A stretch of DNA of 64,000 nt, taken from contig NZ_JAENIM010000039.1 of assembly GCF_016595495.1 (NCBI RefSeq), positions 1 to 64,000 on the forward strand, given 5' to 3'. This stretch comes from Persicirhabdus sediminis (GTDB lineage: Bacteria; Verrucomicrobiota; Verrucomicrobiia; Verrucomicrobiales; Akkermansiaceae). Position 1 is the first letter of the stretch. Each line of letters opens with the position of its first letter. Shown here piece after piece: positions 780-57,696 of this stretch. Below the pieces are notes generated by a model. It saw only the letters and a list, made by a program, of their open reading frames with translations. It was not told the origin of the DNA and ran no database searches. The position numbers and the translations under genes are program-made.

Positions 780-1088
780 TTAGTCTTGAGGTGATTCGAC
801 AAATAATATCACGTCGTACGGCACCCAACGCTCAGCATCCGTGTCCGCCACAACAATTCCTCTCTTGCCGACCTCAACTAGAATTCCGCTCATTGATGTC
901 ATGGCTCCATTAATATTATTTGTCTTGGGGGGAATAGGTAGATTACTGGCGGCACCTAGTGAATCACGTCTAAATTGAACGGTCACCTTCTTATCCACTA
1001 AATTGGGTAAGTGAGATGGTTCATCGCGATTACAGCTGCTCAAAGCAACAGCCAATACACCGTATAATGGTAGTATTTTGAATTTCAT
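780..1088 (-). CDS. Small putative lipoprotein, cassette gene, function unknown
   Basis: With the ATG at 1088 the product has 102 residues and starts MKFKILPLYGVLAVALSSC, a signal peptide with lipobox LSSC, so it is probably a membrane-anchored lipoprotein. A GTG 21 bases further upstream (1109) would overlap the attC-like core ACCTAAC of the preceding cassette, which argues for the ATG. The mature part has no motif I recognise; it may form a small beta domain (residues 30-100, with VTVQFRR and GILVEVGKRGIVVAD). It lies between two attC-like sites. The function is unknown. Confidence 0.7.
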   Translation of the reverse strand: MKFKILPLYGVLAVALSSCNRDEPSHLPNLVDKKVTVQFRRDSLGAASNLPIPPKTNNINGAMTSMSGILVEVGKRGIVVADTDAERWVPYDVILFVESPQD

Positions 1089-1107
1089 TCTATAGGAAAA
1101 CTTGGCC

Positions 1108-1200
1108 ACCTAACAGTGGCGGTTCGTAGTAATTGGTGGTGGATTTAACATTTTTCAGAAATCCAATTAGCCGAGGCTACGATCATTATTTTTGTTGAGC
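1108..1200 (-). repeat. attC-like site (subfamily II)
   Basis: The plus strand reads ACCTAAC (1108-1114), a perfect RYYYAAC, through to GTTGAGC (1194-1200), a perfect GTTRRRY. Two inner arm pairs match: TCGTAG (1124-1129) with CTACGA (1177-1182), and TGGATTT (1140-1146) with AAATCCA (1159-1165). A loop of about 12 bases and unpaired bases on one side complete the picture. This is the best-formed hairpin of the array. A second copy at 6221-6311 is nearly the same sequence. Confidence 0.75.
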
Positions 1201-1348
1201 TGGCGGGCGGCATGTTTAGTCAGATTGAAAGGAGTCATGATGATGGTGGGCTGCGCTCTTGGTTAGTAGAGGAAATTTTTCAGTTTTCAGTGAACCTAAT
1301 GCAGGGTGATAGAATTCTCTAATGAGTCAATGGATAACTAGCTGATAG
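1201..1348 (-). repeat. Conserved spacer following attC-like site, copy 1 of long direct repeat
   Basis: This stretch lies between the attC-like site and the 3' end of the gene at 1429-2445. It is closely similar to 6312-6457; shared landmarks are GGGCTGCGCTCTTGGTTAG and CTCTAATGAGTCAATG. Weaker relatives occur at 2542-2600 and 3166-3200. I see no open reading frame or terminator in it. It could be a conserved 3' untranslated region carried by related cassettes. Confidence 0.6.
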
Positions 1349-1428
1349 TCTGCTTGATCTCACTTTGCTAACTATAATCATCTAGCGGCCTATCCATTTT
1401 GCCGACGGAGCATCGAGTGGTACTGCTT

Positions 1429-2445
1429 TTAGTTTTTTGTATAAAACAATCTCTCATTGGCTTGAAACCATTTGGCCCGGTTTTCATAATCGCTTATCAA
1501 CTTTCGGATGTCTGCCAATTGGGCTTTACCAAAATGACCTCGGCTAGCTTCACGATTGTTGAAAAAATTGCCTGGCTGTAGCTCCACATCTGCCTCCATG
1601 GTTGCGAGGTTGACGGTTACGGAGTATGAGCTACCGGCCACCTCATTTGATTGAAATGAATAGGCTCTGCCATTCACAGTGGCGTCCAATGCTATTGAGA
1701 TCTCCTTTAAGAGGTCGGCTACCCAGTCTCCGCTGAGACTTCCAGTTTCTTCACCTTCTTCGGAATAAAGGCATAATTCGTGCTCTATACGATATTCTGG
1801 ATCACCTTCAGATGAAAAGCTAGTAGCTGCAACCTCGTAGCCAAGTCCTTTTCCTGACACTGTACCAATCGTCGAAATCAAGTTATAGCTGCTAGATCGA
1901 GGTGGTCTAGCCTCATCATTTGGCTCGGGGAGAACCTCATCCAACAGTAATTTTTTGTACCATGCTTCTGCGGATCTTGCTTGTGCCAGCGCTGCGCGTA
2001 CTTTAGCGGCTTCAGCGGGAACAAATTCCGCCTGTTCTACACCTCGGCTCATGCGCACTAACTTCTCACCTCCAACATTTACCACTTCATAGATAGTCTC
2101 TTGATCTCCTCTGAAAGTTTCAGTCGTTACCACATGCCGAAATTCCTCACCTTCCTGAGCGGCATCACCAGCTGCTAAGAACGCTTCAATGTCATCATCT
2201 GTTAGCATGCGCTGCCATGATTCGAATGTATAACAGTACACCCGAATCGAGCTTGAGCCATTTGGCTTGTCAGCACTTCGCGAAATACTAACCGAGACAT
2301 TCAAGCGGTCTCCTTCATCTCTACGAGCAAACCAATCATTAGTCTCCACACTTACATAGAAGTCTTTGTATGGAATCAAATCGCCTGCAAATAGAGGCAG
2401 TGATAGAACTAAGGAAGCTATTATGGACAATTGAGAAGTCTTCAT
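1429..2445 (-). CDS. Secreted protein of unknown function, cassette gene
   Basis: The product has 338 residues. MKTSQLSIIASLVLSLPLFAG is a cleavable signal peptide ending near residue 21, so the mature protein is periplasmic or extracellular. The rest is acidic and looks mainly beta-stranded, with no transmembrane segment and no motif I recognise. It is the largest gene of the array. The ATG at 2445 is the only sensible start. On its 3' side is the conserved spacer and attC-like site at 1108-1348. Its function cannot be stated. Confidence 0.7.
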   Translation of the reverse strand: MKTSQLSIIASLVLSLPLFAGDLIPYKDFYVSVETNDWFARRDEGDRLNVSVSISRSADKPNGSSSIRVYCYTFESWQRMLTDDDIEAFLAAGDAAQEGEEFRHVVTTETFRGDQETIYEVVNVGGEKLVRMSRGVEQAEFVPAEAAKVRAALAQARSAEAWYKKLLLDEVLPEPNDEARPPRSSSYNLISTIGTVSGKGLGYEVAATSFSSEGDPEYRIEHELCLYSEEGEETGSLSGDWVADLLKEISIALDATVNGRAYSFQSNEVAGSSYSVTVNLATMEADVELQPGNFFNNREASRGHFGKAQLADIRKLISDYENRAKWFQANERLFYTKN

Positions 2446-2454
2446 ATTTTCAGA

Positions 2455-2541
2455 GCTGTAATGGGTTATCGTAGTGATGGCGTGATTGATTCTAGCTGTG
2501 GCTAGATTAGCCGAGCTTTGAGATCATGCATTGCGCTTAGC
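2455..2541 (-). repeat. Degenerate attC-like site (subfamily II)
   Basis: This stretch aligns with the sites at 1108 and 6221 over TCGTAGTGATGG and GATTAGCCGAGC, and ends GCTTAGC where the others end GTTGAGC. The left core is poorly preserved (CTGTAAT region). It is followed by the same conserved spacer motif, GGGCGGGATGTTTAGCTAG. It is likely a decayed recombination site behind the gene at 2676-3107. Confidence 0.5.
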
Positions 2542-2675
2542 AGACGGGCGGGATGTTTAGCTAGATTGATCGTGTTCATGCTGGGGCGGGAGCCCCTTAG
2601 CTAGCGGTGGTAAGTTTTCATAGAATGAAGCCAGCAGCTAACATAGTTGAGCGCTAGCCATGATGCCTGTTGGCG

Positions 2676-3107
2676 TCATTTGCTGTCATTGTCTTTTTGG
2701 AGCGTCTCTAACTTCTTCTTTTCTCGTGCTTTCTGACTCGCTGCGCCACCAATGTTCCAGTTCATGAGATGATTAATCGCTTCGATAGTTTCCTCTGCGC
2801 GATGGGAAACTTGCGGCACTTCATCAGCGAGCGCACGGAGCAGCACGGGCTTCACTATATTCTTCTCTATTCGCCCCTTAAATCTCGCTGCATATTCAAT
2901 ACCGAAAAGGGAGTTGGCGCGGACACTAGGGTCTGAATGTTCTGAGAGCCTAACGCTGATGTCCTGGATAAACCGCCAGTTGTCGTGGTGAAAGCCGAGT
3001 TCAATCGGGATCATTAGAAGCCGCTCGACGTCATTTTTCTCTATCGCCTCGAAGACCTCCTTCTCGGTAATTGGCTTAGGTTCTTCATAGATGAGCTGCG
3101 GGTTCAT
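2676..3107 (-). CDS. HEAT-repeat-like helical protein, cassette gene
   Basis: This 143-residue cytoplasmic protein has no signal peptide. Residues 15-120 are helical with a repeat-like pattern (SDPSVRANSLFGIEYAARF, then KPVLLRALADEVPQVSHRA), which resembles tandem HEAT helices that bind other proteins. Small proteins of this build occur among immunity proteins of polymorphic toxin systems and in cassette arrays, but I cannot assign a partner here. The C-terminus is lysine-rich and probably disordered. No toxin gene is evident next to it. Confidence 0.65.
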   Translation of the reverse strand: MNPQLIYEEPKPITEKEVFEAIEKNDVERLLMIPIELGFHHDNWRFIQDISVRLSEHSDPSVRANSLFGIEYAARFKGRIEKNIVKPVLLRALADEVPQVSHRAEETIEAINHLMNWNIGGAASQKAREKKKLETLQKDNDSK

Positions 3108-3115
3108 ATTTCTTC

Positions 3116-3165
3116 TGGCTTAAGACTAGGGGGGAGGGGCTATATCTCAGTGAGCTGGGTTAGCT
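3116..3165 (-). repeat. Short, degenerate attC-like site
   Basis: The right end GTTAGCT (3159-3165) is followed by a spacer alignable with those after the other sites: GGCGCGCTAGG, then TTTAGCTAGATTG and TTCATGATG. The left core is near GGCTTAA at 3117. The block is only about 50 bp, so it may be internally deleted. It precedes the start of the gene at 2676-3107. Confidence 0.35.
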
Positions 3166-3360
3166 GGCGCGCTAGGTATTTAGCTAGATTGTTAGTTTTT
3201 CATGATGTGTCGGCAGTTCGCTAATTTTGTCAGCCGAAAGTTTTCTGTTTTGCAGGTTAAAATGCCTTGCTAACATTATTATAGTTTTTGAAATATGATA
3301 GAAATTAATAAATCGTCAATATAATATCTAGCGGTTAGTTTGCTTGCATGCATCCGCTGG

Positions 3361-3942
3361 TTATGTGCTATTAGGCGATGACAGTTGGCTACATACAGCT
3401 CTAAAAGTGTCATTGGCTCGCTTCGCAGGGAACGAGGCTACGAATCCTGTGCGTTCGCAGAAGTTTGACTTGCCGTCCGCTGAGCAGACGGTGAAAATCC
3501 CGTGAGCCCTCCCAAACTGAGCAGGCAACCTTTGCCGGCAGATCACATCCGCCACGTCAGGAGGAATCGCAGCTTGGTGGACTATGAGCGTGGCGGTGTA
3601 AGTAACACTAGATCGAAACCACCAGGGTGATAAATGCAATCGATCTGTATGCGTTCGACTAGCGATGTGAAGGGTAGAAAGCAAGGCCATCGACGGCTCG
3701 ACGATCTCTGGCAATCGGTAAATGTAGAATCGGTCTACGTATGAAAGCAGAGACCGACCGCCGCGTTTGCTATAGAGGCGGGTGGCTGTATGTGAACCGA
3801 TAGAAACGTCCTTCTCGCATATGAATCTGTGCTGTTCAAACGTTGCGTGCATCATTTCAAGCACGTCTGGCTGATCGAGGGGCGTGCGAACGCCCGAGTC
3901 TGAAAGTGCTACATCTGCGGTGGGCGATTCGTAGGGATTCAT
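3361..3942 (-). CDS. MNPYESP-type protein of unknown function, cassette gene
   Basis: The product has 193 residues and begins MNPYESPTADVA. An MNPY(E/Q)SP start is common in hypothetical proteins of Planctomycetes and related PVC bacteria, so a PVC origin of this cassette is plausible. There is no clear signal peptide or membrane segment. The middle section (residues 60-130) looks beta-rich, and three cysteines lie in the C-terminal half. I recognise no domain. Base composition appears higher in G+C than that of the neighbouring cassettes, which fits independent acquisition. Confidence 0.65.
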   Translation of the reverse strand: MNPYESPTADVALSDSGVRTPLDQPDVLEMMHATFEQHRFICEKDVSIGSHTATRLYSKRGGRSLLSYVDRFYIYRLPEIVEPSMALLSTLHIASRTHTDRLHLSPWWFRSSVTYTATLIVHQAAIPPDVADVICRQRLPAQFGRAHGIFTVCSADGKSNFCERTGFVASFPAKRANDTFRAVCSQLSSPNST

Positions 3943-3964
3943 TTAGATCGAGTAGTCGTCTTGC

Positions 3965-4056
3965 TGAGAACAGTATTGATTCGTTGTAATACTTACGAAA
4001 ATTAACTCATCTGTGGCGAGCTTAGCCGAGGCAGCCATCAATCTAAATGGTTCAGC
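3965..4056 (-). repeat. attC-like site (subfamily II) of an apparently empty cassette
   Basis: The plus strand reads TGAGAAC (3965-3971) through to GTTCAGC (4050-4056), with arms ATTGAT (3975-3980) and ATCAAT (4037-4042) pairing perfectly. The internal GCTTAGCCGAGGC matches the sites at 1108 and 6221. Only about 34 bases separate it from the next attC-like site at 4091, too few for a gene. Confidence 0.6.
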
Positions 4057-4090
4057 TTCTATTTTGTGTAATTCCATTATTTTAATTTCA

Positions 4091-4203
4091 GTCGAACGTA
4101 AAGGACAGGCATCCGCCAGTGGGTTTCGTTGTTCTGTTGCTTTTTAGAGTTTTACGGGCGGGTTAGCGGGTTGTCCTGCTCCGGCTGGTTTGAAGAGTTA
4201 GTG
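4091..4203 (-). repeat. attC-like site (subfamily I)
   Basis: The plus strand starts GTCGAACGTAAAGG and ends GTTAGTG (4197-4203), directly before the stop codon of the gene at 4204-4497. The left part shares GAACGTAAAG with the site at 657 (TAACGTAAAG). The internal arms are weaker than in the other copies. Confidence 0.5.
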
Positions 4204-4497
4204 TTAAAATTGCTGAGACACTCGAAAGAAGAAGGCTGCCCCAATGATGAAAAGCACTGGTGTCGAATACAGCATCAGCCTGACTTTCTTCAGCTTAGCT
4301 TTCTCTTCTTCGTTTTTCTCCTCGCTAATAGCTTGCGCAATCATCTTGAAATCCCGGAAGTGATGAGAAAACCAGCTGTATGGATACCCCTTCTTTTTTA
4401 GGGCGAATTTAGCTCGATACCCAATTGCATTGCAAAGGAAGATAACAAACATGCCGACAATGACCAACGGTGAGTATTCAAAGGGAGGGTGATTCAT
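4204..4497 (-). CDS. Small two-helix membrane protein, cassette gene
   Basis: The product has 97 residues with a membrane helix at 9-27 (PLVIVGMFVIFLCNAIGY) and another near 74-92 (MLYSTPVLFIIGAAFFF). Between them is a charged region with KKKGYPYSWFSHHFRDF. Similar short proteins with a GY-AKF-L--KGY--SWF pattern are, from memory, frequent among uncharacterised integron-cassette and proteobacterial proteins; no function is known. The stop codon touches the attC-like site on its 3' side. It is probably an inner-membrane protein. Confidence 0.65.
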   Translation of the reverse strand: MNHPPFEYSPLVIVGMFVIFLCNAIGYRAKFALKKKGYPYSWFSHHFRDFKMIAQAISEEKNEEEKAKLKKVRLMLYSTPVLFIIGAAFFFRVSQQF

Positions 4498-4506
4498 TTG
4501 ATTTTT

Positions 4507-4615
4507 TTCGAACGTCTTAGCTCACAGTATCCCCGATCGGGAGAGAGCGTTGATTTCAGGGTTAAGGGGTGAATGGTCATGGAAAATTCGACTCGGTGCG
4601 GATTAGCGGTTAGTT
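4507..4615 (-). repeat. attC-like site (subfamily I) overlapping a gene end
   Basis: The plus strand runs from TTCGAACGTCTTAGCTCA to GTTAGTT (4609-4615). The left part aligns with GCCTAACGTAAAGCTCA of the site at 657. The stop codon of the gene at 4603-5040 lies inside the right end of the site, as is common for cassette genes. Confidence 0.5.
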
Positions 4616-5040
4616 GATGCGGCTTGTTCTGCCTCTTGTGTGCCTGGCAACGATTCCTCACGCCAAAGTTCGGCATCTGGGGATACAAAAACCACTGAGC
4701 GTGAATCTGGACTCCACTTGATCCAGTCTTCAGCAGATCCCATGCGGAAATTAAGTGGCATCCGTTCGACTCTTATTCTTCTAGACCTTATGGTCTCGTT
4801 ACTCGCTGTTGATACCACGAACTCGTAGTAGGGAGGCAATCCAAGCTCCTTATCTGCATACTTATTTTTTATGTGGGCAGTCATTTTCTGATCTGGCGAA
4901 TCAAGGAAGCATCCGCCTCCGTCTGGGCCTCGCTCTATCGCCTCACCCACTGTACTCAGTATGAATTTTAGCGTGATGCATCCATAAATGATAGTACTAA
5001 GGATTATCCCACTCAGAACGCCGAAAATATACTTTTTCAT
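4603..5040 (-). CDS. Membrane-anchored WSPDSR (TolB-like) protein, cassette gene
   Basis: I choose the ATG at 5040, giving 145 residues starting MKKYIFGVLSGIILSTIIYGC. That is an N-terminal membrane helix, possibly with a lipobox ending in Cys21. The GTG at 5061 would overlap the attC-like core GCCTAGC. The C-terminal half holds IKWSPDSRSVVFVSPD, the PD40/TolB beta-propeller blade signature, but there is room for only one or two blades. The gene at 5664-6212 encodes the same motif. The function is unknown; it may be a cell-surface binding domain. Confidence 0.65.
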   Translation of the reverse strand: MKKYIFGVLSGIILSTIIYGCITLKFILSTVGEAIERGPDGGGCFLDSPDQKMTAHIKNKYADKELGLPPYYEFVVSTASNETIRSRRIRVERMPLNFRMGSAEDWIKWSPDSRSVVFVSPDAELWREESLPGTQEAEQAASTNR

Positions 5041-5052
5041 TTTCTGCAGAAT

Positions 5053-5166
5053 GCCTAGCACACCAACCGCTGACCACTCAGCGCGCTACGTTTTTGGGGT
5101 TGGATTGAAATTGTCATGAAGGGTATTAATTCGGCGGGGCGCGGATGGGGACTGCACTTGTTAGCC
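5053..5166 (-). repeat. attC-like site (subfamily I)
   Basis: The plus strand reads GCCTAGC (5053-5059), then ACCAACCGCTG matching the site at 657, and ends GTTAGCC (5160-5166), four bases before the stop codon of the gene at 5170-5625. The right part CGGATGGGGACTGCACTTG aligns with CGGATGCGGTAATTTG of the first site. A G in place of the first core A (CTAGC) suggests slight decay. Confidence 0.55.
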
Positions 5167-5169
5167 AAG

Positions 5170-5625
5170 TTAGTTTTGAGAGAGTGACTTTATGAACTGC
5201 TTCGGGTTTTGAAGTAGTATAGTTAGGTTTGAACTGGATCCATCATCGTGAGTGTATTTAAGATGCGTTGCGTTACCTCTTTGTTCGACTGAAACGATGT
5301 TTTTGAGTGGAACTATGTGATCTAAATCAAACTTCTCGTTGAGTAAATTAAATGGAAATGGAGTAGTGATAGCCAAAACATTTTCGGTCACTAGCACCGT
5401 TAAGCAACGTGAAGCTCCACCCAATCGCGTAAAGATTGTTTTATGTGATGAGCCTGATGCTTTGAATTCCGAAAACACCACGCCTTCATCTGTTGGATTG
5501 GGGAATGTTAGCCCTTTCTTTTTTCGTTTCCATACTAAATAGCTGAAGCAGACTACATACCATAAAGTAATCAAGCCGAAGCAGAGGGCAAAGTTATTAA
5601 AGACAAATTCAAGAATGCTCTTCAT
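5170..5625 (-). CDS. Membrane-anchored PH-like domain protein, cassette gene
   Basis: The product has 151 residues. One membrane helix covers residues 12-32 (FALCFGLITLWYVVCFSYLVW), then KRKKK faces the cytoplasm. The soluble part (residues 45-148) is beta-rich and ends in an amphipathic helix (NPKQFIKSLSQ). The pattern CLTVLVTENVLAITTPFPFNLL is one I associate with an uncharacterised bacterial family with a PH-like fold. Its function is unknown; a membrane-proximal sensor or scaffold is possible. It is framed by attC-like sequence on the 3' side. Confidence 0.65.
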   Translation of the reverse strand: MKSILEFVFNNFALCFGLITLWYVVCFSYLVWKRKKKGLTFPNPTDEGVVFSEFKASGSSHKTIFTRLGGASRCLTVLVTENVLAITTPFPFNLLNEKFDLDHIVPLKNIVSVEQRGNATHLKYTHDDGSSSNLTILLQNPKQFIKSLSQN

Positions 5626-8065: not shown

Positions 8066-8140
8066 AAATGCTAGACACTGAAGAGGTGGGGGGCTGGAGA
8101 CTGGGGCTAAGTTAGTAAGACTAAACTTTATTTAGTTGAC
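8066..8140 (+). repeat. Repeat family III, copy 2
   Basis: This is the partner of 7286-7362, again placed upstream of a plus-strand gene. It is preceded by GCTAAAC (8055-8061), which fits RYYYAAC. The block contains the first bases of a longer alternative reading frame for the next gene, supporting the later start at 8220. Confidence 0.5.
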
Positions 8141-8219
8141 CTTAGATTCTAATAAAAGCAGTTTTCATATATCAACATTTCGAATATTCGTTTGTTGGTT
8201 ACTGATCCACATTGAGACA

Positions 8220-8891
8220 ATGAAATACACCCTTTTACTATTAGCGTCATTTACTGGGCTGGCGCACTCAGCCACGACATTTATTGATGCTGACTTTGAA
8301 GCTCCACATGTTTTGAATACAGCCCCAGCGACAGGCTCTGGTATCGGGCTAGTAAGTACTATAGATGGTGGTAGTCCGTTGATTGTCACAGGTGAACCAG
8401 CCTCAGGAAATGCCCTATCCTTACAGACTGGAGATGCGGTCATATTTGAGGTAGGTCAACGATTCAGTAGTTATGAGATTTCTTATGACTTAACATTTAT
8501 GAATTTCGAAGGCACTGCGTCTGAGTTTACGTTTTTCATTGATACACCTATAATCAGAAGGGTCGATATAGGTTCTTCGGAAACTCAAATTTTTATTCCT
8601 GGATCTAGTAGGAATGCGGAATTATTGATTTTAGATGATACTAATTATTCAATTTTGCATGAAGTTGATACTGCCGCAGATACTTGGGAGATCTCAGTAA
8701 ATGGGAGCTTACTTTATAGTGGTCAGATTGGGGCTGATGGTGTTGAAATGATTAGATTTTATAATATTGGAAGCGCTGGTGCTGAAGTGAAGTTAGATAA
8801 CTTGCTACTTACTGGGAATGCGATACCTGAGCCAAATACAAGCATTTTGCTTTTTGTGGCCTCAATAGGGTTATGGAAGCGAAAGAGATAA
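8220..8891 (+). CDS. PEP-CTERM surface protein
   Basis: Starting at the ATG at 8220 the product has 223 residues and begins MKYTLLLLASFTGLAHSA, a typical signal peptide; an ATG at 8136 would place 28 odd residues before it. The C-terminus is a PEP-CTERM tail: IPEPNTSILLFVASIGLWKRKR, that is PEP, a hydrophobic helix and a basic end. Such proteins are exported and processed by an exosortase, which is not in this window. The body looks like a beta-sandwich (residues 20-190), as in carbohydrate-binding surface proteins. It sits at the right end of the cassette array. Confidence 0.8.
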   Translation: MKYTLLLLASFTGLAHSATTFIDADFEAPHVLNTAPATGSGIGLVSTIDGGSPLIVTGEPASGNALSLQTGDAVIFEVGQRFSSYEISYDLTFMNFEGTASEFTFFIDTPIIRRVDIGSSETQIFIPGSSRNAELLILDDTNYSILHEVDTAADTWEISVNGSLLYSGQIGADGVEMIRFYNIGSAGAEVKLDNLLLTGNAIPEPNTSILLFVASIGLWKRKR

Positions 8892-11550: not shown

Positions 11551-12981
11551 CTAGCGGACCTTTTTTCGCCGCATCATGACTAGTCCGGTGATAGAAACTA
11601 GGATGATCATGAGTGCGCTGAGAATGGAGACCACATCGCGGGTGTCTTTGCTGATGACATCGAGGAAATGAAGTTTGTGTAGGTTGATGAAAATCAAAGC
11701 ATCTACCACCTGCGCAGGTTTGCTACGCATGCTGAGATGAGAGTTCACCGTATCTACCGTGTATTGTTGGTATTCTTCTCCACGATAGCTTATGCGCCAA
11801 ACTGGTAGTCGCTTATAGATAAAGCCATAGTCTCTAGCAAATCGCGTGATCAATCTGCAGTCGCTGATAGATTCAGCTGGGTATTGGCTGAACTCACCAG
11901 CTAACTCACGTGCGTAGTCGGCATCGCTGTAGTCAGTGAGCTCACCAGTCATGGTATTTACATAGACGCTGGCCGCTGGATTTTGGCGGTCTAATAGCTG
12001 CACACGATAATAGCTAGAGTTAGCATTACTCGCTAGGCTGATTTGACTGGCGAGCTTACCTTGCGCCTTAAGTTGATCAATTACTGGCTGGATATGACTT
12101 TCCAGCTGGATCGTAGGCACTGTGCGTTCACTTGCCCTTAAGAAGCTTCTATCAAAACGTGTCTTTGCTGCAATTTGCCAGATAGCAGAGAAGCTGAACA
12201 TCAGATAGAATAAGCTGATGATAATGCCCAAGGAGCGGTGCAGTTTGCGGCTTAAGCCTAACTTTCTAGTTTGACCACTACTGGTGCGGTTCTTGAAAAA
12301 CACCCTCGTGACTATGCCTGAAACCCCAACAAATAGTGATAGGACTGAGCACAGCGCAACGATGATGATGCGTAGCCAGCTGGATTCATCACCTAGAAAA
12401 CTCCACGTGTGAGTGTAGCTGAATACCAATAGATAGAGGCGTTTGGCTGGTGTATCATGTGTCGCTAACTTGCTTGTTGCCGTATCGACGTAGACGTGCT
12501 GACCATTCTCAAACACCACTTTCCAGACTGGTAGCAGGCGATTGATGTAGCGGTAGGTTAGCGTGAAGTCTTCGACGAGTTCAGCCGACACGATATTTTC
12601 AGCTGGCTGACCAGAATAGCTACACGCTAGCTGGCGTGCATAACTATTCTGGCCGTCATTGATTTCAATCCCTGTGAGTACGCCGAAGTACCATTGCTTA
12701 TCGTTTCTATCTATCAATTGGTAACAATGAATGTCGTCTAACTCAACGATTCTCAGCTGGCGTAGCTCAGCAATACCGGCGGCTTCAGCAATTTCAGCTA
12801 CTGGTTTGGCGTGTGGCGGGACATCGAGTGCGTGTGGCTTGATGAATGGATTCTGAATTTCGGCTCGAAACCAGTTAGCCATCAAAGGATGGAGCAGGCC
12901 ACTGAATGACCAGAGTATTACTGGCACCGCCATGAGCAGGGCAATCTTGCGATGCCATTTGAAAAATTTGCTTTTCATCAT
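11551..12981 (-). CDS. PepSY-associated transmembrane protein
   Basis: The product has 476 residues and is an inner-membrane protein of the PepSY_TM type, found next to TonB-dependent receptors and thought to serve reductive release of iron from siderophores or haem. Helix 1 is at residues 12-34 (IALLMAVPVILWSFSGLLHP). There are paired helices near 205-225 and 250-270, and one near 450-470 (VVSILSALMIILVSITGLVM), ending in MMRRKKVR. Two periplasmic PepSY-like regions (about 50-180 and 285-420) contain the repeated ...YARELA... and YR-NRLLPVW / YKRLPVW motifs. It starts 9 bases after the receptor stop, so it is surely cotranscribed. Confidence 0.82.
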   Translation of the reverse strand: MMKSKFFKWHRKIALLMAVPVILWSFSGLLHPLMANWFRAEIQNPFIKPHALDVPPHAKPVAEIAEAAGIAELRQLRIVELDDIHCYQLIDRNDKQWYFGVLTGIEINDGQNSYARQLACSYSGQPAENIVSAELVEDFTLTYRYINRLLPVWKVVFENGQHVYVDTATSKLATHDTPAKRLYLLVFSYTHTWSFLGDESSWLRIIIVALCSVLSLFVGVSGIVTRVFFKNRTSSGQTRKLGLSRKLHRSLGIIISLFYLMFSFSAIWQIAAKTRFDRSFLRASERTVPTIQLESHIQPVIDQLKAQGKLASQISLASNANSSYYRVQLLDRQNPAASVYVNTMTGELTDYSDADYARELAGEFSQYPAESISDCRLITRFARDYGFIYKRLPVWRISYRGEEYQQYTVDTVNSHLSMRSKPAQVVDALIFINLHKLHFLDVISKDTRDVVSILSALMIILVSITGLVMMRRKKVR

Positions 12982-12989
12982 GGATCAAA

Positions 12990-15041
12990 TTACCAGTTCA
13001 TTTTCATGCCGAGGTAGACACTGCGCCCGTCACCAGGGTGATAGGCTGCTGGATCGGAGGAATCGCCATACGGGTTGATAGTGACTGACGAGACGTAGTT
13101 TTTATCAAACAGGTTGTCGACGCCTCCGTATATGGACAGGTTCTCATTCAGCTGGTACTCCGCTGATAGATCGAAAATGGCGTAGCCGCTAGATTGGCGG
13201 CTGTTATCATTATAGACGTAGAGACCTTGTGGAATATACTGCATGCCGATAGCGCTTTGCCATTTGCCGTCAGCTGATTGTAAACGCACTCGTGTGGTAA
13301 TGACATGCTCGGGAATTCCAGGCAGTTGTTTGCCGTCTAACTCACCATCAGCAAAGGTGAAATCATTCCACAAGTAGAGTTGGTCAAACAGGAGTTGTGC
13401 CCCTCCTTGTTGATTCATGAGCTGGCTAAGGTTAGTCGTTAGCGAGGCTTCTAGCCCTTGTTTTTTGCTATCAACGTTTTCAGGAGTGTAGCTTCCTTGC
13501 GCATTTTGGTATTCCACAAAATCATCATCAACCAGCGAGTAATAGTAGACGATTTCGGCTTGGGTAATTTCGCTTTGCCAGCGTGAGCCGATTTCGAAAC
13601 TGCGAGTTATAGCAGCCTCAAGTGCATCTTCAGCCTCTGATAGGGGAGGGATTTCGTAACTTTGGCTGAGGTTCGTAAAGACTTGGGCATACTCGTTAGC
13701 TTGGTAAATCATGCCAAGACGTGGCGTGAAATCGCTATAGCTTTCATCAAACTCACTCGCTCTGGAGTACACGTTATCGGCTTTGATTTTGCGTTCGCGT
13801 CGACCGTATTGCCATCCTAAGCCAGTGATAAGTTTCCACTTTTCAGCTAGATGGGCACGGTTTTCACCATACAGTTGGAAGTTACTAACGGTATCTTTGA
13901 GCGATTGTTTTTCACTACGTGGTGGCCCACCGCCATACACCGCACGGCTACCGTCATTGTCGATCTTACCGTAATTCAGCTGGCTGTTAAGTCTCCATGA
14001 GTTATCGATCTTAGCTAGCTGGTAGCTTCCCTCAGCTGATAGTGAAAGTCCAACTTCTTGGGTATTGTAATCAATTAGGTTATGAGGCTGGCGTTTTGTT
14101 AGGTGGTCAAAGTCGAGGTTCTGATAGTATGCGCCTAGCTGCCATTGTGTATCTCCAGCTATCCAGCTTGTTTTTTGTGCGATGCGGAAGGTGTTTAGAT
14201 CACGGTTTTCGTGTTCGCTGTTATATGACTGTATGGGGTCAAGCTGCGCGTCACCCTCTGTGAGGCCACTGGCTAGTTGGGCATTGGAATCGCTAGCGTG
14301 CAGGTAAAACCTGGTTTGCGCGTCATCACTCCACAGATACCCGAGGTTGGCATTGAGATGGCTTTGCTGCCAGTTTTGGTTTGCACGGTAGCCATTTGAG
14401 CGCCCGTACGAATAGCTGGCAAAGTAATCCCAGTTGCCGATTTGTTCACCGTATGAGAGATGCGCTCTAGCAGTGTCGAAGCTGCCGTATTCTAATAACA
14501 ATTCGCCGCCGGCGGAGTTGATGCCATTTTTCTGAATGAAATCTATCACTCCTCCTGGAGCTAGGCCGCCGTAGGGCATGCCATTAGCTCCACGGTAGAC
14601 GTTTAGATATTGGGTGGCTAACGGATCATAGGCGCGTGTATAGAAGCTGCCGTCAACGACATTAGCTGGAATACCGTCTAATGTTAGCGTGATGCCGCGT
14701 GCTCCGTACCTGCGTGTTGCGCCTGAACCACGAATGGCGATTCTACCGTCAGTTGCTGTGCCGCCATTGTTAGCGTAAACACCTGGTGTATAGCGAAATA
14801 CTTCGGCTGGTTTCACCACTCTACCTAACCAGATATCATTGACATTTTGTAAGCTGGCGCCTCCGGGAATATTCTCGACGCGTTCTTCTAGCATTTCTAT
14901 TGAGTCGACAAGATCTTGGTCGTGAGCGTCGATGACGGTTTCAGGCAGCATCTCTGGCTGCTGTGTTGGAGATTCGCCAAAACTATTTGATATAGCTAGA
15001 TTGGCGATGATGATGGTATTGATTGTATTTGAAAATTTCAT
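12990..15041 (-). CDS. TonB-dependent outer-membrane receptor
   Basis: I choose the ATG at 15041 (MKFSNTINTIIIANLAIS, signal peptide) over the TTG seven codons upstream, giving 683 residues. The plug domain spans roughly residues 55-165 (VFRYTPGVYANNGG, IAIRGSGATRRYGARGITLTLDGIP, YLNVYRGANGMPYGG). The 22-stranded barrel follows and ends LGMKMNW with a terminal aromatic residue. It resembles ferric-siderophore receptors more than B12 ones, judged by the plug and the PepSY partner; the substrate is not visible. It is the middle gene of the operon 15643-11551. Confidence 0.88.
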   Translation of the reverse strand: MKFSNTINTIIIANLAISNSFGESPTQQPEMLPETVIDAHDQDLVDSIEMLEERVENIPGGASLQNVNDIWLGRVVKPAEVFRYTPGVYANNGGTATDGRIAIRGSGATRRYGARGITLTLDGIPANVVDGSFYTRAYDPLATQYLNVYRGANGMPYGGLAPGGVIDFIQKNGINSAGGELLLEYGSFDTARAHLSYGEQIGNWDYFASYSYGRSNGYRANQNWQQSHLNANLGYLWSDDAQTRFYLHASDSNAQLASGLTEGDAQLDPIQSYNSEHENRDLNTFRIAQKTSWIAGDTQWQLGAYYQNLDFDHLTKRQPHNLIDYNTQEVGLSLSAEGSYQLAKIDNSWRLNSQLNYGKIDNDGSRAVYGGGPPRSEKQSLKDTVSNFQLYGENRAHLAEKWKLITGLGWQYGRRERKIKADNVYSRASEFDESYSDFTPRLGMIYQANEYAQVFTNLSQSYEIPPLSEAEDALEAAITRSFEIGSRWQSEITQAEIVYYYSLVDDDFVEYQNAQGSYTPENVDSKKQGLEASLTTNLSQLMNQQGGAQLLFDQLYLWNDFTFADGELDGKQLPGIPEHVITTRVRLQSADGKWQSAIGMQYIPQGLYVYNDNSRQSSGYAIFDLSAEYQLNENLSIYGGVDNLFDKNYVSSVTINPYGDSSDPAAYHPGDGRSVYLGMKMNW

Positions 15042-15247
15042 GTAGTTATCATTTTGAGCCAACTAGAGATTTCTAGCTGACTAGGGTGCGCGCGCACAGA
15101 TAGGCCAAGGGTTTCGAGGCCGTGCGCAGGGTGATAACGCCTTAAAAGTGGCGTGTTTCATGCCAATGAAGGTCTCATCGTAACAATATGATTAGATGTT
15201 AGCTTTGAGCCAAAACTTGGCAGGGTGATGATAGGCCAAAGGGCCAG

Positions 15248-18247: not shown

Positions 18248-21200
18248 TTATTTGTCTGAAAAGACGAGTCGGTAGAAGGCTTTTTCCTCGAGGGTTTCTC
18301 CTTGAGGGATGGCGCTGAGCTCGATGAGCTGGCCGGTGCCCTCGAACTTTTCGCCAAGAGCTTGCCAGTCGTCGAGTGAGTCAGATTTTTCTAGCTGATA
18401 GAAAACACCTTTCTCAGTTTGTACTTTGATGGTGGGTTCGCCGTTATTTAGCTCAGGTAGTGATAGAGCTGGCTCGTCTTGTGGGCTCAGTGGATCGAGG
18501 CGCGCGAAGTATTCGGCGATATCGGTGAGTTCATCGCCGTCGAAGTTAGAAGTCTTGGTGGCGGTGGTTAAGTTGCCAAACCAAAGTATTTCCCAGCCGT
18601 CGTCGATGGTATCATTATCGCTATCGACCAAGGCTAGTCCGTCACTGATAGTTAGGAGTAGTTCAGTTCTATCAGTGTCTCCACGGTTGCTCCAGTAGAA
18701 GATGCCGCCGTAGCCTTGCTGACGTGAGTACTTGGCTTTTTCCAGCATGGCTTCAGGGTCGTCGTAAGAAATCCAGACGCCAGTTTTGCTGTCGTAGAGG
18801 TAGGGGACTTTAGCGTAGGCATCCCAGTAGCGAGGCATGTTAGCTATTTGTGTGCTGAGGTCGCGGTACAACGGTGCGCTGCCGCTACCTGAGTGACTTT
18901 GGAATGCGCCATTAGCTGTGTTATGTACACCGTAGAAGACGCGCCCGTAGAATGGTGCACCTACTAGCAGTTTCGAGCGAGGGAATCCACCAGCTTCATA
19001 TTGAGCGAGAACCGCTTCAATATTGAGCAGATTGCTAGCTGGGTCAGCAGAGTTATCATGCAGGCCAGCGTTGTGACCAGTATAGTCGTCCCAAGCTCCG
19101 TGCAGGTCGTATCCTTGAGCATTCACAAAATCAAACAATGGAGCTAGCTTGGCGAGTTCTAACTGGGCTATTCCATTTGGACTTGCCGCGGTGAATGCGG
19201 TGATTTCGTAATGGAGGTCATCAAGTGATTCTTGAGCGTCTAGCTCAGCTCTGAGAGCAGCGATGAGCTGGGTATAGTTAGGTCCATCTTTAGCCGTGGG
19301 AGTGGTTCCTGGGCCACCATTCACCCCAGGCCATTCCCAGTCGACATCGATTCCGTCTAGATTGTAATCATTTACGGCATCGCGGCAACTTTGCGCGAAG
19401 GTTGTTCTTCCTTCTTCGGTATCAGCGACGCTGGCGAAGTTAGCTGACCACGTCCAGCCACCAACGGAGACAAGGATTTTAAGCTCAGGGTTTTGAGCTT
19501 TCAGCTGGTTGAGCGTGGCAAAATGGCTGATTGCCGATTCAGAGATTTTCAGGGAGCCATCAGTATTCAAGTCGGCAAATGCGTACATGATATGAGTGAC
19601 CCGGTTAGGATCGGGGATGTTTAAGGTCCCGCTGGTTCCATCGATGTAGGCTACGACGCGTTGGCGACCAAAGGCATCGTTATCTATCTCGTTATCGATG
19701 ATTTGGCCAACTACGTGGTGGGTGACCAAATAGCCACCGGAGACGTTTGATAGAGTGAAATGAATTTTTTCTAATCGTTCATCCAGAGTGTCGCCAAGAA
19801 TGCTAACATTAATGGTCGTTTCCTGCTCTCCTTCAGCGAAAGTATAGCTGCCGTTGTTGGTGGTAAAATCTGATCCAGCGGTAGCGGTCATGCCGCTGGT
19901 GGTGTAGTCAAAGCTAACGACTTCATCACTTTTCACTGCACGGTCTAGCTTGACGGTGAAGGTCATGTTTTCGCTGCCAGAGTCACCTTCGATGACGATA
20001 TCACCAAAAGCAGTTAGGGATACTGGGCCATCGTCGTCGAGTATGGTGATCGTCGCTTGGCTATCTTGTGAGCTGGTGAAAACAGGCACGGTTTCACCAT
20101 CAACACCTGCTAGCTGGATAGAAAATGAACGATCTTCATCGATCAATCGATTACCGAGAATCTCAACATTGATAGACTTAGTTGTTTCACCGGGAGCAAA
20201 TTCCAAGGTGCCACTAGTGGCGGTGAAATCTGTGTCTGCTGTAGCATCACCATCAACGGTGATGTAGCTGACAAAAATGGATTCTGTATGTTCGCCTGAT
20301 AGGTTCACTGCTACTGAGCTAGTAAAGGTGCTGTCACCTTCATCGATTTCGCTGTCGGCAATGCTGACGCTCGGTGGTAGCAGTTCTAGATCATTGCTGC
20401 CAATAGAGACATCAAGGGGGGGAACTGGGTTAGACTGAGAATTCCAGCCGAATGTATAGCTACCACCAGCTGCGATAGGCACGTTGTTAGCAGGCAGGGT
20501 GATGGTATAAACATTGCCGTCAACCGTGTAGCTTTCAATGCCCCAGAAGTTAGGGTTATTGAGCTCAATTTCAATGACAACAGTTGAGCTCGTCCAAGCG
20601 GTGGCATCGTTATTTACTAATTTAAGCGAGGCTGAGTAGCCTGTTCCCCAATCGTCAGTGACGGTGAATCTGAATCCTCCAGCTGCGGTGCTGTCGTTGT
20701 CAGTGATGCTGAGTTGGGCGCTCATTTGCCCTTCGAGTAATCCTGTTGCTGAGCTTAATGTTAGTTTTAAGCTTTCGTCGCTTTCTTCGAGTTCGTCGTC
20801 AATGATAGGAATGACGATCGTCTTACTGATCTCGCCAGCGGCGAAGTTGAGCGTGCCGCTAGTACTTGTATAATCGACGCCTGCGGTGGCTGTGATGTCG
20901 CTAGTAGCAAAGTCAACACTAGCGATTTTACCGTCCTCTACAGCCTTTGATAGAGTGACGTTGAAGGTCGCTGTGGAGTTGCTTTCATTAACGCTGAGGT
21001 TACTGATAGAGACGACGGGGTCACCCTCGATTACGGAGGAACCGCCGAATGTGATGTCTGATAGAGAGAAGAATACTTCACCAACTGGATCAATTCTTTG
21101 CCAAGCCACATAGAGTACGTGCTGGCCTGTTCTTTCTGGTAGAGTGATAGGAACGTAATAATGCTGCCCCTCTTTGCTATAGGCGTCAGTACCAAATTTA

Positions 21201-21703
21201 CCTAGAAATTCTAGGTCGTCCCAAGTGATAGCCTGTTTGGGATTGAATCCTTCCTTACTGATCCAGACTTTAAAAAATGATGGATCGTGTGTCGCGGTGG
21301 CGATCCAGTCGATGGTCATTGGGCCAGCACTCACTTGAGTGGTTGGCCAGTCCCATGTATTGCTGAACAAATCGAGGCCTGCGAAGTTGAGCGTTGCTTG
21401 TTCGCGGTTGCCGGCGCTGGCTAGCTGGCCGTCTGGCACAACTGAGGCGTAGCTCTCGTTGAAAATAGCATCGTCATAGTTAGCTACATTCAGGGAGATT
21501 TGATTCCATGTGTAGTACTGGTTGGATCCAGCTAGCGTCACGGCTGCAATGGCAGATGCGGATTTTGGATTAGCTGGCCCTTCTTGAAAGATGCTGTAAA
21601 CACGGCTGATAGGGTCTGCGACGGTGCCGTGGGCTGATAGGTTTGCTGATGATGTGAGTAAGCACAGTGTGCTTAGTAAAAATGGATAGGATAGGCGCTT
21701 CAT
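18248..21703 (-). CDS. Secreted LPMO (AA10) - CBM2 - GH18 chitinase fusion
   Basis: The product has 1151 residues from the ATG at 21703 (MKRLSYPFLLSTLCLL signal). Cleavage after SANLSA leaves His at the mature N-terminus (HGTVADPISR), the copper ligand of AA10 lytic polysaccharide monooxygenases; the second His is in ATHDPSFF and the axial aromatic residue in VFFSLSD. Calx-beta domains lie at about 230-335, 435-560 and 560-675. A CBM2-like domain (DDWGTGYSASLKLVNN, NFWGIESYTVDG) is at 338-434. GH18 starts near 676, with catalytic DGIDVDWEW near 784. A short C-terminal region follows DNDTIDDGWE. It should oxidise and hydrolyse chitin outside the cell. Confidence 0.88.
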   Translation of the reverse strand: MKRLSYPFLLSTLCLLTSSANLSAHGTVADPISRVYSIFQEGPANPKSASAIAAVTLAGSNQYYTWNQISLNVANYDDAIFNESYASVVPDGQLASAGNREQATLNFAGLDLFSNTWDWPTTQVSAGPMTIDWIATATHDPSFFKVWISKEGFNPKQAITWDDLEFLGKFGTDAYSKEGQHYYVPITLPERTGQHVLYVAWQRIDPVGEVFFSLSDITFGGSSVIEGDPVVSISNLSVNESNSTATFNVTLSKAVEDGKIASVDFATSDITATAGVDYTSTSGTLNFAAGEISKTIVIPIIDDELEESDESLKLTLSSATGLLEGQMSAQLSITDNDSTAAGGFRFTVTDDWGTGYSASLKLVNNDATAWTSSTVVIEIELNNPNFWGIESYTVDGNVYTITLPANNVPIAAGGSYTFGWNSQSNPVPPLDVSIGSNDLELLPPSVSIADSEIDEGDSTFTSSVAVNLSGEHTESIFVSYITVDGDATADTDFTATSGTLEFAPGETTKSINVEILGNRLIDEDRSFSIQLAGVDGETVPVFTSSQDSQATITILDDDGPVSLTAFGDIVIEGDSGSENMTFTVKLDRAVKSDEVVSFDYTTSGMTATAGSDFTTNNGSYTFAEGEQETTINVSILGDTLDERLEKIHFTLSNVSGGYLVTHHVVGQIIDNEIDNDAFGRQRVVAYIDGTSGTLNIPDPNRVTHIMYAFADLNTDGSLKISESAISHFATLNQLKAQNPELKILVSVGGWTWSANFASVADTEEGRTTFAQSCRDAVNDYNLDGIDVDWEWPGVNGGPGTTPTAKDGPNYTQLIAALRAELDAQESLDDLHYEITAFTAASPNGIAQLELAKLAPLFDFVNAQGYDLHGAWDDYTGHNAGLHDNSADPASNLLNIEAVLAQYEAGGFPRSKLLVGAPFYGRVFYGVHNTANGAFQSHSGSGSAPLYRDLSTQIANMPRYWDAYAKVPYLYDSKTGVWISYDDPEAMLEKAKYSRQQGYGGIFYWSNRGDTDRTELLLTISDGLALVDSDNDTIDDGWEILWFGNLTTATKTSNFDGDELTDIAEYFARLDPLSPQDEPALSLPELNNGEPTIKVQTEKGVFYQLEKSDSLDDWQALGEKFEGTGQLIELSAIPQGETLEEKAFYRLVFSDK

Positions 21704-56625: not shown

Positions 56626-57696
56626 TTATTTGCGACGGCGCAGCACAAAGGCAAATCCAGCCAAACCTAGCAGAGCCGCTGAGCCTGGCTCTGGGATTAC
56701 TGAGATGGTGCCAGTTGCATTAAATTGGCTGAAATCCCAGCTTAAACCGTCGGCTAACATAGCGTTTGAAGTGTCAAAAGTCGCTGTGCCTGTGATCGCG
56801 TCATTGTTGTTTGCCAACTGGAAGCTAGCACCTGATTCCAGCGCGTCTCCAGTTAGGTTGAGGGCGATGGTATGGCCATCAACATCGAGGTTAAATAGAT
56901 CTGAACCGAGATCCAAGAAGTCGTTGGTTAATACGCCTGCACTGTTATTCAAATCAAATTGAGAAGTGAATCCGCTTGCTAATTCTAGGTTATAGTTACC
57001 CCCCGTGGAGCCTGATGCTGAAATGGTACCAATCGTGCCGTCTGTCCCTAGCTGGAGTTGATTGATAACAACCGTGGCTACATCCCCATTTGAATTGCGG
57101 TTATTGATGAGTGAGCCATCGCCTCCCACTATGGCTAAAGTATTTGTGCTACCGTTAGTGAAACGTAATGCTAAGGAACCTCCTGCGAGGGTAACGCTAG
57201 CACTATTTGCTGAACTCGTTCCATTGTACTGGAGTCGTGAGGTAGAGCCAACGTTGAAGATAGAGCCTGAGTTAGTGCTAGATCCATTGTTGAATGCTAA
57301 GTTACCAGAGGTTTTGTTGAGGTTTATATTTCCTGTTAAGGTGACGCCATTTTGTAGGATAATGTTCTGGGTGCCGGTAATACTACCATTAACCGTTAGT
57401 GTTTTTGCTACGCCATTATCCTCAATACGGAGGCCTCCTGTACCAGTGTGGTTAAGCCCCGATGCCGTGATGTCTTCTTGTAAGAGAAGGTCTTTATTTG
57501 AGCCTGATGTATTGCTTACGTTAGCTGTATCTCCATTTTCCCAAATATCGGGGTTTATTAAACCTGCTTCTTGGAACCAGTTATTAGTAGAGGTATCCCA
57601 GTTTTGGTTGCCTGCAGAGATATCGATAAACAAATCAGCAGCTTGTACCGCCGGCAGGCTGAAAAGTATGATGGATCCTATGGTTTTTATTTTCAT
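56626..57696 (-). CDS. PEP-CTERM beta-helix (autotransporter-repeat-like) protein
   Basis: The product has 356 residues. The signal peptide is MKIKTIGSIILFSLPAVQA. The body has the Gly/Asn/Thr-rich, short-strand pattern of PATR-type beta-helices (SGLNHTGTGGLRIEDNG, LTVNGSITGTQNIILQNG, SLALRFTNGSTN). The C-terminus VIPEPGSAALLGLAGFAFVLRRRK is a canonical PEP-CTERM tail. It is therefore an exosortase-anchored surface protein, perhaps part of the extracellular matrix. It has its own terminator. Confidence 0.88.
   Translation of the reverse strand: MKIKTIGSIILFSLPAVQAADLFIDISAGNQNWDTSTNNWFQEAGLINPDIWENGDTANVSNTSGSNKDLLLQEDITASGLNHTGTGGLRIEDNGVAKTLTVNGSITGTQNIILQNGVTLTGNINLNKTSGNLAFNNGSSTNSGSIFNVGSTSRLQYNGTSSANSASVTLAGGSLALRFTNGSTNTLAIVGGDGSLINNRNSNGDVATVVINQLQLGTDGTIGTISASGSTGGNYNLELASGFTSQFDLNNSAGVLTNDFLDLGSDLFNLDVDGHTIALNLTGDALESGASFQLANNNDAITGTATFDTSNAMLADGLSWDFSQFNATGTISVIPEPGSAALLGLAGFAFVLRRRK

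Follow-up and report, generated by a model that had tools for sequence, protein, structure and literature searches.

A predicted secreted enzyme of Persicirhabdus sediminis joining an AA10 LPMO and a GH18 chitinase on a Calx-beta scaffold

Gene and domain organization

The window, i.e. the whole stretch of 64,000 nucleotides of Persicirhabdus sediminis DNA that was analyzed, contains one uninterrupted ORF of 1151 amino acids at positions 18248-21703 on the minus strand, with the ATG at 21703 and the stop codon at 18248-18250. The initial annotation had given exactly these coordinates, to which we add the strand and the lack of an internal stop. It had also described an LPMO and a GH18 chitinase in a single secreted chain together with three Calx-beta domains and a CBM2-like domain, and Pfam searches over the ORF bore out these assignments. 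The domain order is AA10-Calx-CBM2-Calx-Calx-GH18-Cterm, all encoded on the minus strand. A signal peptide (residues 1-24, MKRLSYPFLLSTLCLLTSSANLSA, 21632-21703), probably cleaved by signal peptidase I before His25, precedes the AA10 domain (residues 25-220, 21044-21631). The GH18 chitinase domain covers residues ca. 677-1022 (18638-19675). Both catalytic domains have intact catalytic residues and share one ORF with the signal peptide, which is the layout of a bi-catalytic enzyme. Base composition at third codon positions was similar from domain to domain (0.42-0.57), so nothing along the gene indicates a recent graft.

The Calx-beta domains matched Pfam in three stretches (E 4.8e-49, 165.8 bits), at residues ca. 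227-343 (20675-21025), ca. 441-560 (20024-20383), and ca. 562-672 (19688-20020). Between the first and second lies the carbohydrate-binding domain (residues ca. 345-440, 20384-20671). Its CBM_2 match to residues 345-425 scored 24.2 bits, just over the cut-off of 24, which makes 'CBM2-like' the right label. Among homologues built the same way, CBM2 scored 47.8 bits in L049, 35.4 in L050, and 19.8-21.3 in L045, L046, and L083, whereas that of L082 (genome G676) stayed under the Pfam listing threshold. CBM2 modules bind cellulose or chitin. The last 129 residues form a C-terminal module (residues 1023-1151, 18251-18637) with an acidic, DxD-rich start that looks TSP3- or EF-like by eye; TSP3_bac matches were found in the homologues L082 and L083. 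This module occurs at 12 places in the window genome, its own copy counted.

The gene lies outside any chitin cluster, with an aldo/keto reductase, a glutamine cyclotransferase, a SpoU methylase, and a LysE transporter as neighbors. Two further GH18 genes and three GH20 genes in the same genome are consistent with chitin use. Elsewhere in the window a TonB-dependent receptor adjoins a PepSY-TM protein (11551-15062, minus strand), and the two probably serve the uptake of iron or siderophores. PEP-CTERM-like tails were seen by eye in the ORFs at 8136-8891 (plus strand) and 56626-57696 (minus strand); the chitin enzyme has no such tail.

AA10 domain and copper site

The LPMO_10 profile (PF03067) matched residues 25-217 over its whole length (1-183 of 183) with an E-value of 1e-37 and 131 bits against a cut-off of 23, and no other LPMO_10 gene was found in the window genome. 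The domain shares 44% identity with ScLPMO10D (PDB 7ZJB), with E-values of 4e-36 in a single-sequence search and 2e-48 by profile.

According to the initial annotation, the mature protein would start with a copper-binding histidine, and the proposal would fall if that residue stayed buried or if the second copper ligand was missing. The exposed histidine and the second ligand were both supported by alignment with chains of known structure. His25 (codon at 21629-21631) aligned with His1 of ScLPMO10D and of other solved AA10 chains, and His139 (mature His115, codon at 21287-21289) aligned with the second copper ligand. The two histidines, with Phe211 in the axial position, would thus form the putative copper site. 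A histidine corresponding to His139 was present in 52 of the 53 sequences of the AA10 alignment, including the window, the remaining one having an X at this position. The residue preceding the aligned His-Gly was Ala, Gly, or Ser in all 13 related loci whose N-terminus is complete, two further loci lacking theirs. This is the pattern expected for signal peptidase I and it fits a cleavage, predicted here by comparison, that exposes His25. Cys773 is the sole cysteine of the mature protein, so the AA10 domain would have no disulfide.

AlphaFold models were of low confidence. The AA10 domain, modeled from a 15-sequence alignment, had a mean pLDDT of 58.5, the values for residues 1-12 and 37-90 falling under 50, and the full-length protein, from a 3-sequence alignment, had a mean of 44.1. 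In Foldseek searches with the AA10 model, AA10 LPMOs ranked first, with 7ZJB as the best hit (E 1.2e-9, TM ca. 0.5). Because of the low confidence and the shallow alignments we did not base the copper-site assignment on these models.

The surroundings of the copper site suggest which substrate is oxidized. In mature numbering, N43, T112, A113, R179, E185, and F187 are identical to their ScLPMO10D counterparts, and the N/T/A part of this set is kept in all 13 sequences of the AA10 clade to which the window belongs. In the mutagenesis described in PMC10067821, a cellulose LPMO gained chitin activity only when both residues equivalent to Asn76 and Thr131 of ScLPMO10D were changed. Arg198 and Glu203, also named there, are matched in the window as well. 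From this chitin-type second shell we predict that the AA10 domain is active on chitin.

A different division of labor would have the AA10 domain attack a polysaccharide other than chitin (cellulose, or the mixed walls of fungi or algae), with the GH18 domain degrading chitin in the same composite wall. The CBM2-like domain could bind either polymer, and AA10 domains are joined to GH9 in other Verrucomicrobiota (see below). The R179/E185 pair is common to cellulose-active AA10s as well, according to PMC10067821. The N43/T112 pair is nevertheless of the chitin type, and ScLPMO10D and CbpD, the nearest relatives with a solved structure, act on chitin. Both points make the composite-wall explanation improbable.

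GH18 domain

The GH18 profile (PF00704) matched residues 682-1008 (positions 1-316 of 317, E 1.5e-74), and the domain is 66% identical to its best homologue. The catalytic motif DGIDVDWE, described as intact before, is indeed complete at residues 783-790 (19334-19357), and a Tyr-Asp pair follows downstream. The GH18 clade of the window has Q-x-Y-D/N where most other GH18 sequences in our tree have M-x-Y-D, the glutamine standing two residues ahead of the tyrosine of the catalytic region. In the relative L046/L024 the sequences DVDLE, GYN, and GGR replace DxDWE, GYD, and GGW, and hydrolysis may be weakened in that protein. Both the glutamine near the catalytic tyrosine and the substitutions in L046 would fit a protein of which the GH18 or AA10 domain has decayed to leave a mere binding function. 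Since every catalytic residue checked is present in the window protein, we consider such decay very improbable here.

Occurrence in related genomes

A domain-architecture search, as suggested with the initial annotation, found the combination in other genomes. Five more genomes of the order (G229, G236, G113, G676, and G708) have the complete architecture of the window protein in an intact ORF of 1150-1178 amino acids. The encoded proteins (L045/L027, L046/L024, L049, L082, and L083) share 47-63% identity with the window in the AA10 domain and 46-66% in the GH18 domain. In a further genome, G247, the same domain order occurs at L050 (4147-7676) with a frame change that places the AA10 domain in a different frame from the remainder, due to a sequencing error or a pseudogene. 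This frame break, and the adjacent separate genes in some Planctomycetota described below, could be taken to mean that the fusion in the window is an assembly or sequencing artefact of two genes. Recurrence of the intact ORF in five genomes refutes this explanation, to which we give practically no weight, and indicates a maintained enzyme.

The searches at family, order, and phylum level drew on overlapping samples. Within the family, 17 of 260 genomes had PF03067, with one gene apiece. GH18 was in the same ORF in five of these 17, four with the architecture described here (the window, G229, G236, and G113) and one with another GH18 type (G211). Five others were AA10-CBM2 proteins and another five were AA10-Calx-beta proteins, with a CBM2 according to Pfam in the one that was scanned (L041). 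The remaining two were the frame-broken gene of G247 and a gene cut by a contig end. The order-level search gave matches in 9 of 189 genomes, among them G676 and G708. At phylum level 8 of 387 genomes matched: four with GH18 (the window, G370, G559, and G606), two with GH9 and no GH18 (G539 and G376), and two with no second catalytic domain in the Pfam listing. Joining of AA10 to GH18, GH9, or both is therefore common among the sampled Verrucomicrobiota AA10 genes.

Several of these proteins differ in layout from that of the window. L042 (3923-7819, plus strand) is a second kind of fusion within the family, in which AA10 and Calx-beta are followed by a different GH18 type (65 bits in Pfam), then Calx-beta and CBM2; its GH18 was missed by searches with that of the window. 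Three catalytic domains in one chain were found in G559 and G606, where AA10, three CBM2 domains, GH18, and GH9 form single ORFs of 1623 and 1576 amino acids (L066, 1446-6314, and L067, 1653-6380, both on the plus strand). In L062, L064, and L081 a single ORF holds AA10, CBM2, and GH9, a cellulase family. L110 of genome G117 (925-5445, plus strand) has the Calx-CBM2-Calx-Calx-GH18-Cterm scaffold of the window with the AA10 domain replaced by another domain, which is GH18-like by eye, was left uncalled by Pfam, and is followed by an extra Calx-beta. This arrangement points to an exchangeable N-terminal slot.

In Planctomycetota, searched around a center chosen for having a fusion, 12 of 392 genomes had an AA10 domain. 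Three Phycisphaerales loci (L029, L033, and L034) encode AA10-CBM2-GH18 proteins. With the window GH18 as query, no partner was detected in the 11 Planctomycetota AA10 genomes besides the center, for which the loci are short. In L028 (465-4030) and L035 (1-3377) AA10 and GH18 are overlapping adjacent genes, with a separate signal peptide apparently encoded by the GH18 gene.

Phylogeny of the two catalytic domains

Trees were calculated for the AA10 domain (53 sequences) and the GH18 domain (23 sequences). In the AA10 tree the window fell within a clade of 13 Calx-beta-linked AA10 domains (support 83/93, not starred). A single origin of all AA10-GH18 fusions was rejected: constraining the 14 GH18-carrying sequences to one clade, a group named like the other constrained group after inspection of the tree, gave a p-AU of 5e-8. 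The seven sequences with the window architecture could be joined in one clade without rejection (p 0.09). At least five changes between the states with and without GH18 were required among the 47 AA10 sequences counted, each of which may be a gain or a loss. Two reference chains and four sequences that were truncated or incompletely read were left out of the count, and L050 was scored as fused despite its frame break.

In the GH18 tree, the AA10-associated domains of the window type grouped together with L110 (support 99/98) against seven others, which are merely the next-best matches of the same family and the same genome. Because the sampling of GH18 is this thin, the proteins may still go back to one old AA10-GH18 pairing with later losses and exchange of linkers.

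The notion that the partner domain predicts the substrate type, with GH18-joined AA10 domains having the N/T pair and GH9-joined ones not, failed across phyla. All eight GH18-joined sequences of the AA10 clade of the window have N/T. Four AA10-CBM2-GH18 sequences (the three from Phycisphaerales and L063) and two GH18-GH9 sequences have H or S and H or P in place of the N/T pair, and with these six the rule breaks down.

Discussion

Judging from its sequence, the ORF very probably encodes a secreted bi-catalytic enzyme that degrades chitin by means of an AA10 and a GH18 domain. Signal peptidase would expose His25, which together with His139 would bind copper, and the AA10 domain would then oxidatively break chains at the surface of crystalline chitin. 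The CBM2-like domain and the three Calx-beta domains could anchor and space the enzyme, while the GH18 domain would hydrolyze chitin from the chain ends or loosened regions made by the LPMO. Processive action on crystalline chitin, as proposed in the initial annotation, may or may not accompany these steps. Both steps would be carried out by one molecule in the same place, with a synergy that we propose by analogy with Jd1381 of Jonesia denitrificans, an AA10-CBM5-GH18 protein.

Jd1381 is described in a 2023 review (PMC10154629) as the only bi-catalytic LPMO characterized by that date, and the full-length protein outperformed its separated parts in every combination, indicating intramolecular synergy. 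With this precedent and the frequent AA10-hydrolase joins in the sampled Verrucomicrobiota, the view that the fusion is so unusual as to be novel is not supported.

It is conceivable, if rather doubtful, that the domains act independently and that the fusion is a device for co-secretion or co-localization with no intramolecular synergy. The 12 genomic places of the C-terminal module suggest that parts of the scaffold are generic, and five close AA10-Calx-beta proteins lack any GH18. Against independent action stand the pairing in six further genomes of the family and order, of which one has the frame break, and the synergy reported in PMC10154629 for Jd1381.

For the bi-catalytic enzyme a wider reading with two parts can be put forward, which as a whole we regard as tentative. 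Its first part is that LPMO-hydrolase machines arise time and again in Verrucomicrobiota, and in some Planctomycetota, from modular scaffolds whose N-terminal slot can be exchanged and whose hydrolase varies (GH18 of this or a different type, GH9, or both GH18 and GH9). The second is that the branch of the window is an obligate two-step chitin enzyme in which Calx-beta domains, as calcium-stiffened spacers, would fix the distance between LPMO and chitinase, in genomes that, if this is true, have no free LPMO. Natural controls are at hand in AA10 homologues with and without GH18, the adjacent-gene Planctomycetota, and the GH9 and GH18-GH9 relatives. Their comparison would probe whether selection favors a covalent link between oxidative and hydrolytic activities.

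Comparison with known systems

The AA10 domains of known structure closest to that of the window are ScLPMO10D (7ZJB), CbpD (7SQX and 8C5N), and Tma12 (6IF7). ScLPMO10D shares the His/His/Asn/Thr/Ala/Arg/Glu/Phe set but, unlike the window protein, is anchored to the cell wall and has no hydrolase. To our knowledge CbpD and Tma12 also lack an attached catalytic hydrolase. On the hydrolase side, the chitinases 5GZT/5GZU, which we take to be Paenibacillus ChiW, and 1ITX share the GH18 family and the aligned catalytic motif with the window, and we know of no LPMO domain in either. The Verrucomicrobiales proteins L045/L027, L046/L024, L049, L082, and L083, with the same AA10-Calx-CBM2-Calx-Calx-GH18 order, are uncharacterized. 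The Calx-beta architecture of the window was unreported in the open-licence papers searched. PMC11131199 states that no planctomycetotal LPMO had been analyzed and refers to a figure for their multi-modularity.

Jd1381 resembles the window protein in having an N-terminal AA10, a carbohydrate-binding module, and then GH18 in one polypeptide. The window protein has a CBM2-like and three Calx-beta domains in place of CBM5, and in addition the C-terminal module. The AA10 domain of Jd1381 (JdLPMO10A; PDB 5AA7, 5VG0, and 5VG1) is distant and of a different lineage, with a profile E-value of 0.078 for 5AA7 as compared to 2e-48 for ScLPMO10D, and it did not appear at an E-value of 10 in a single-sequence search with the window AA10. 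On this sequence evidence the window protein is built like Jd1381 with an AA10 from another lineage, and common descent of the fusion is unsupported. The distant AA10 lineage, the other spacers, and the other carbohydrate-binding module make it look like an independently assembled variant, so that its family would be a second, apparently independent version of the bi-catalytic LPMO beside the one listed as characterized in the 2023 review (PMC10154629).
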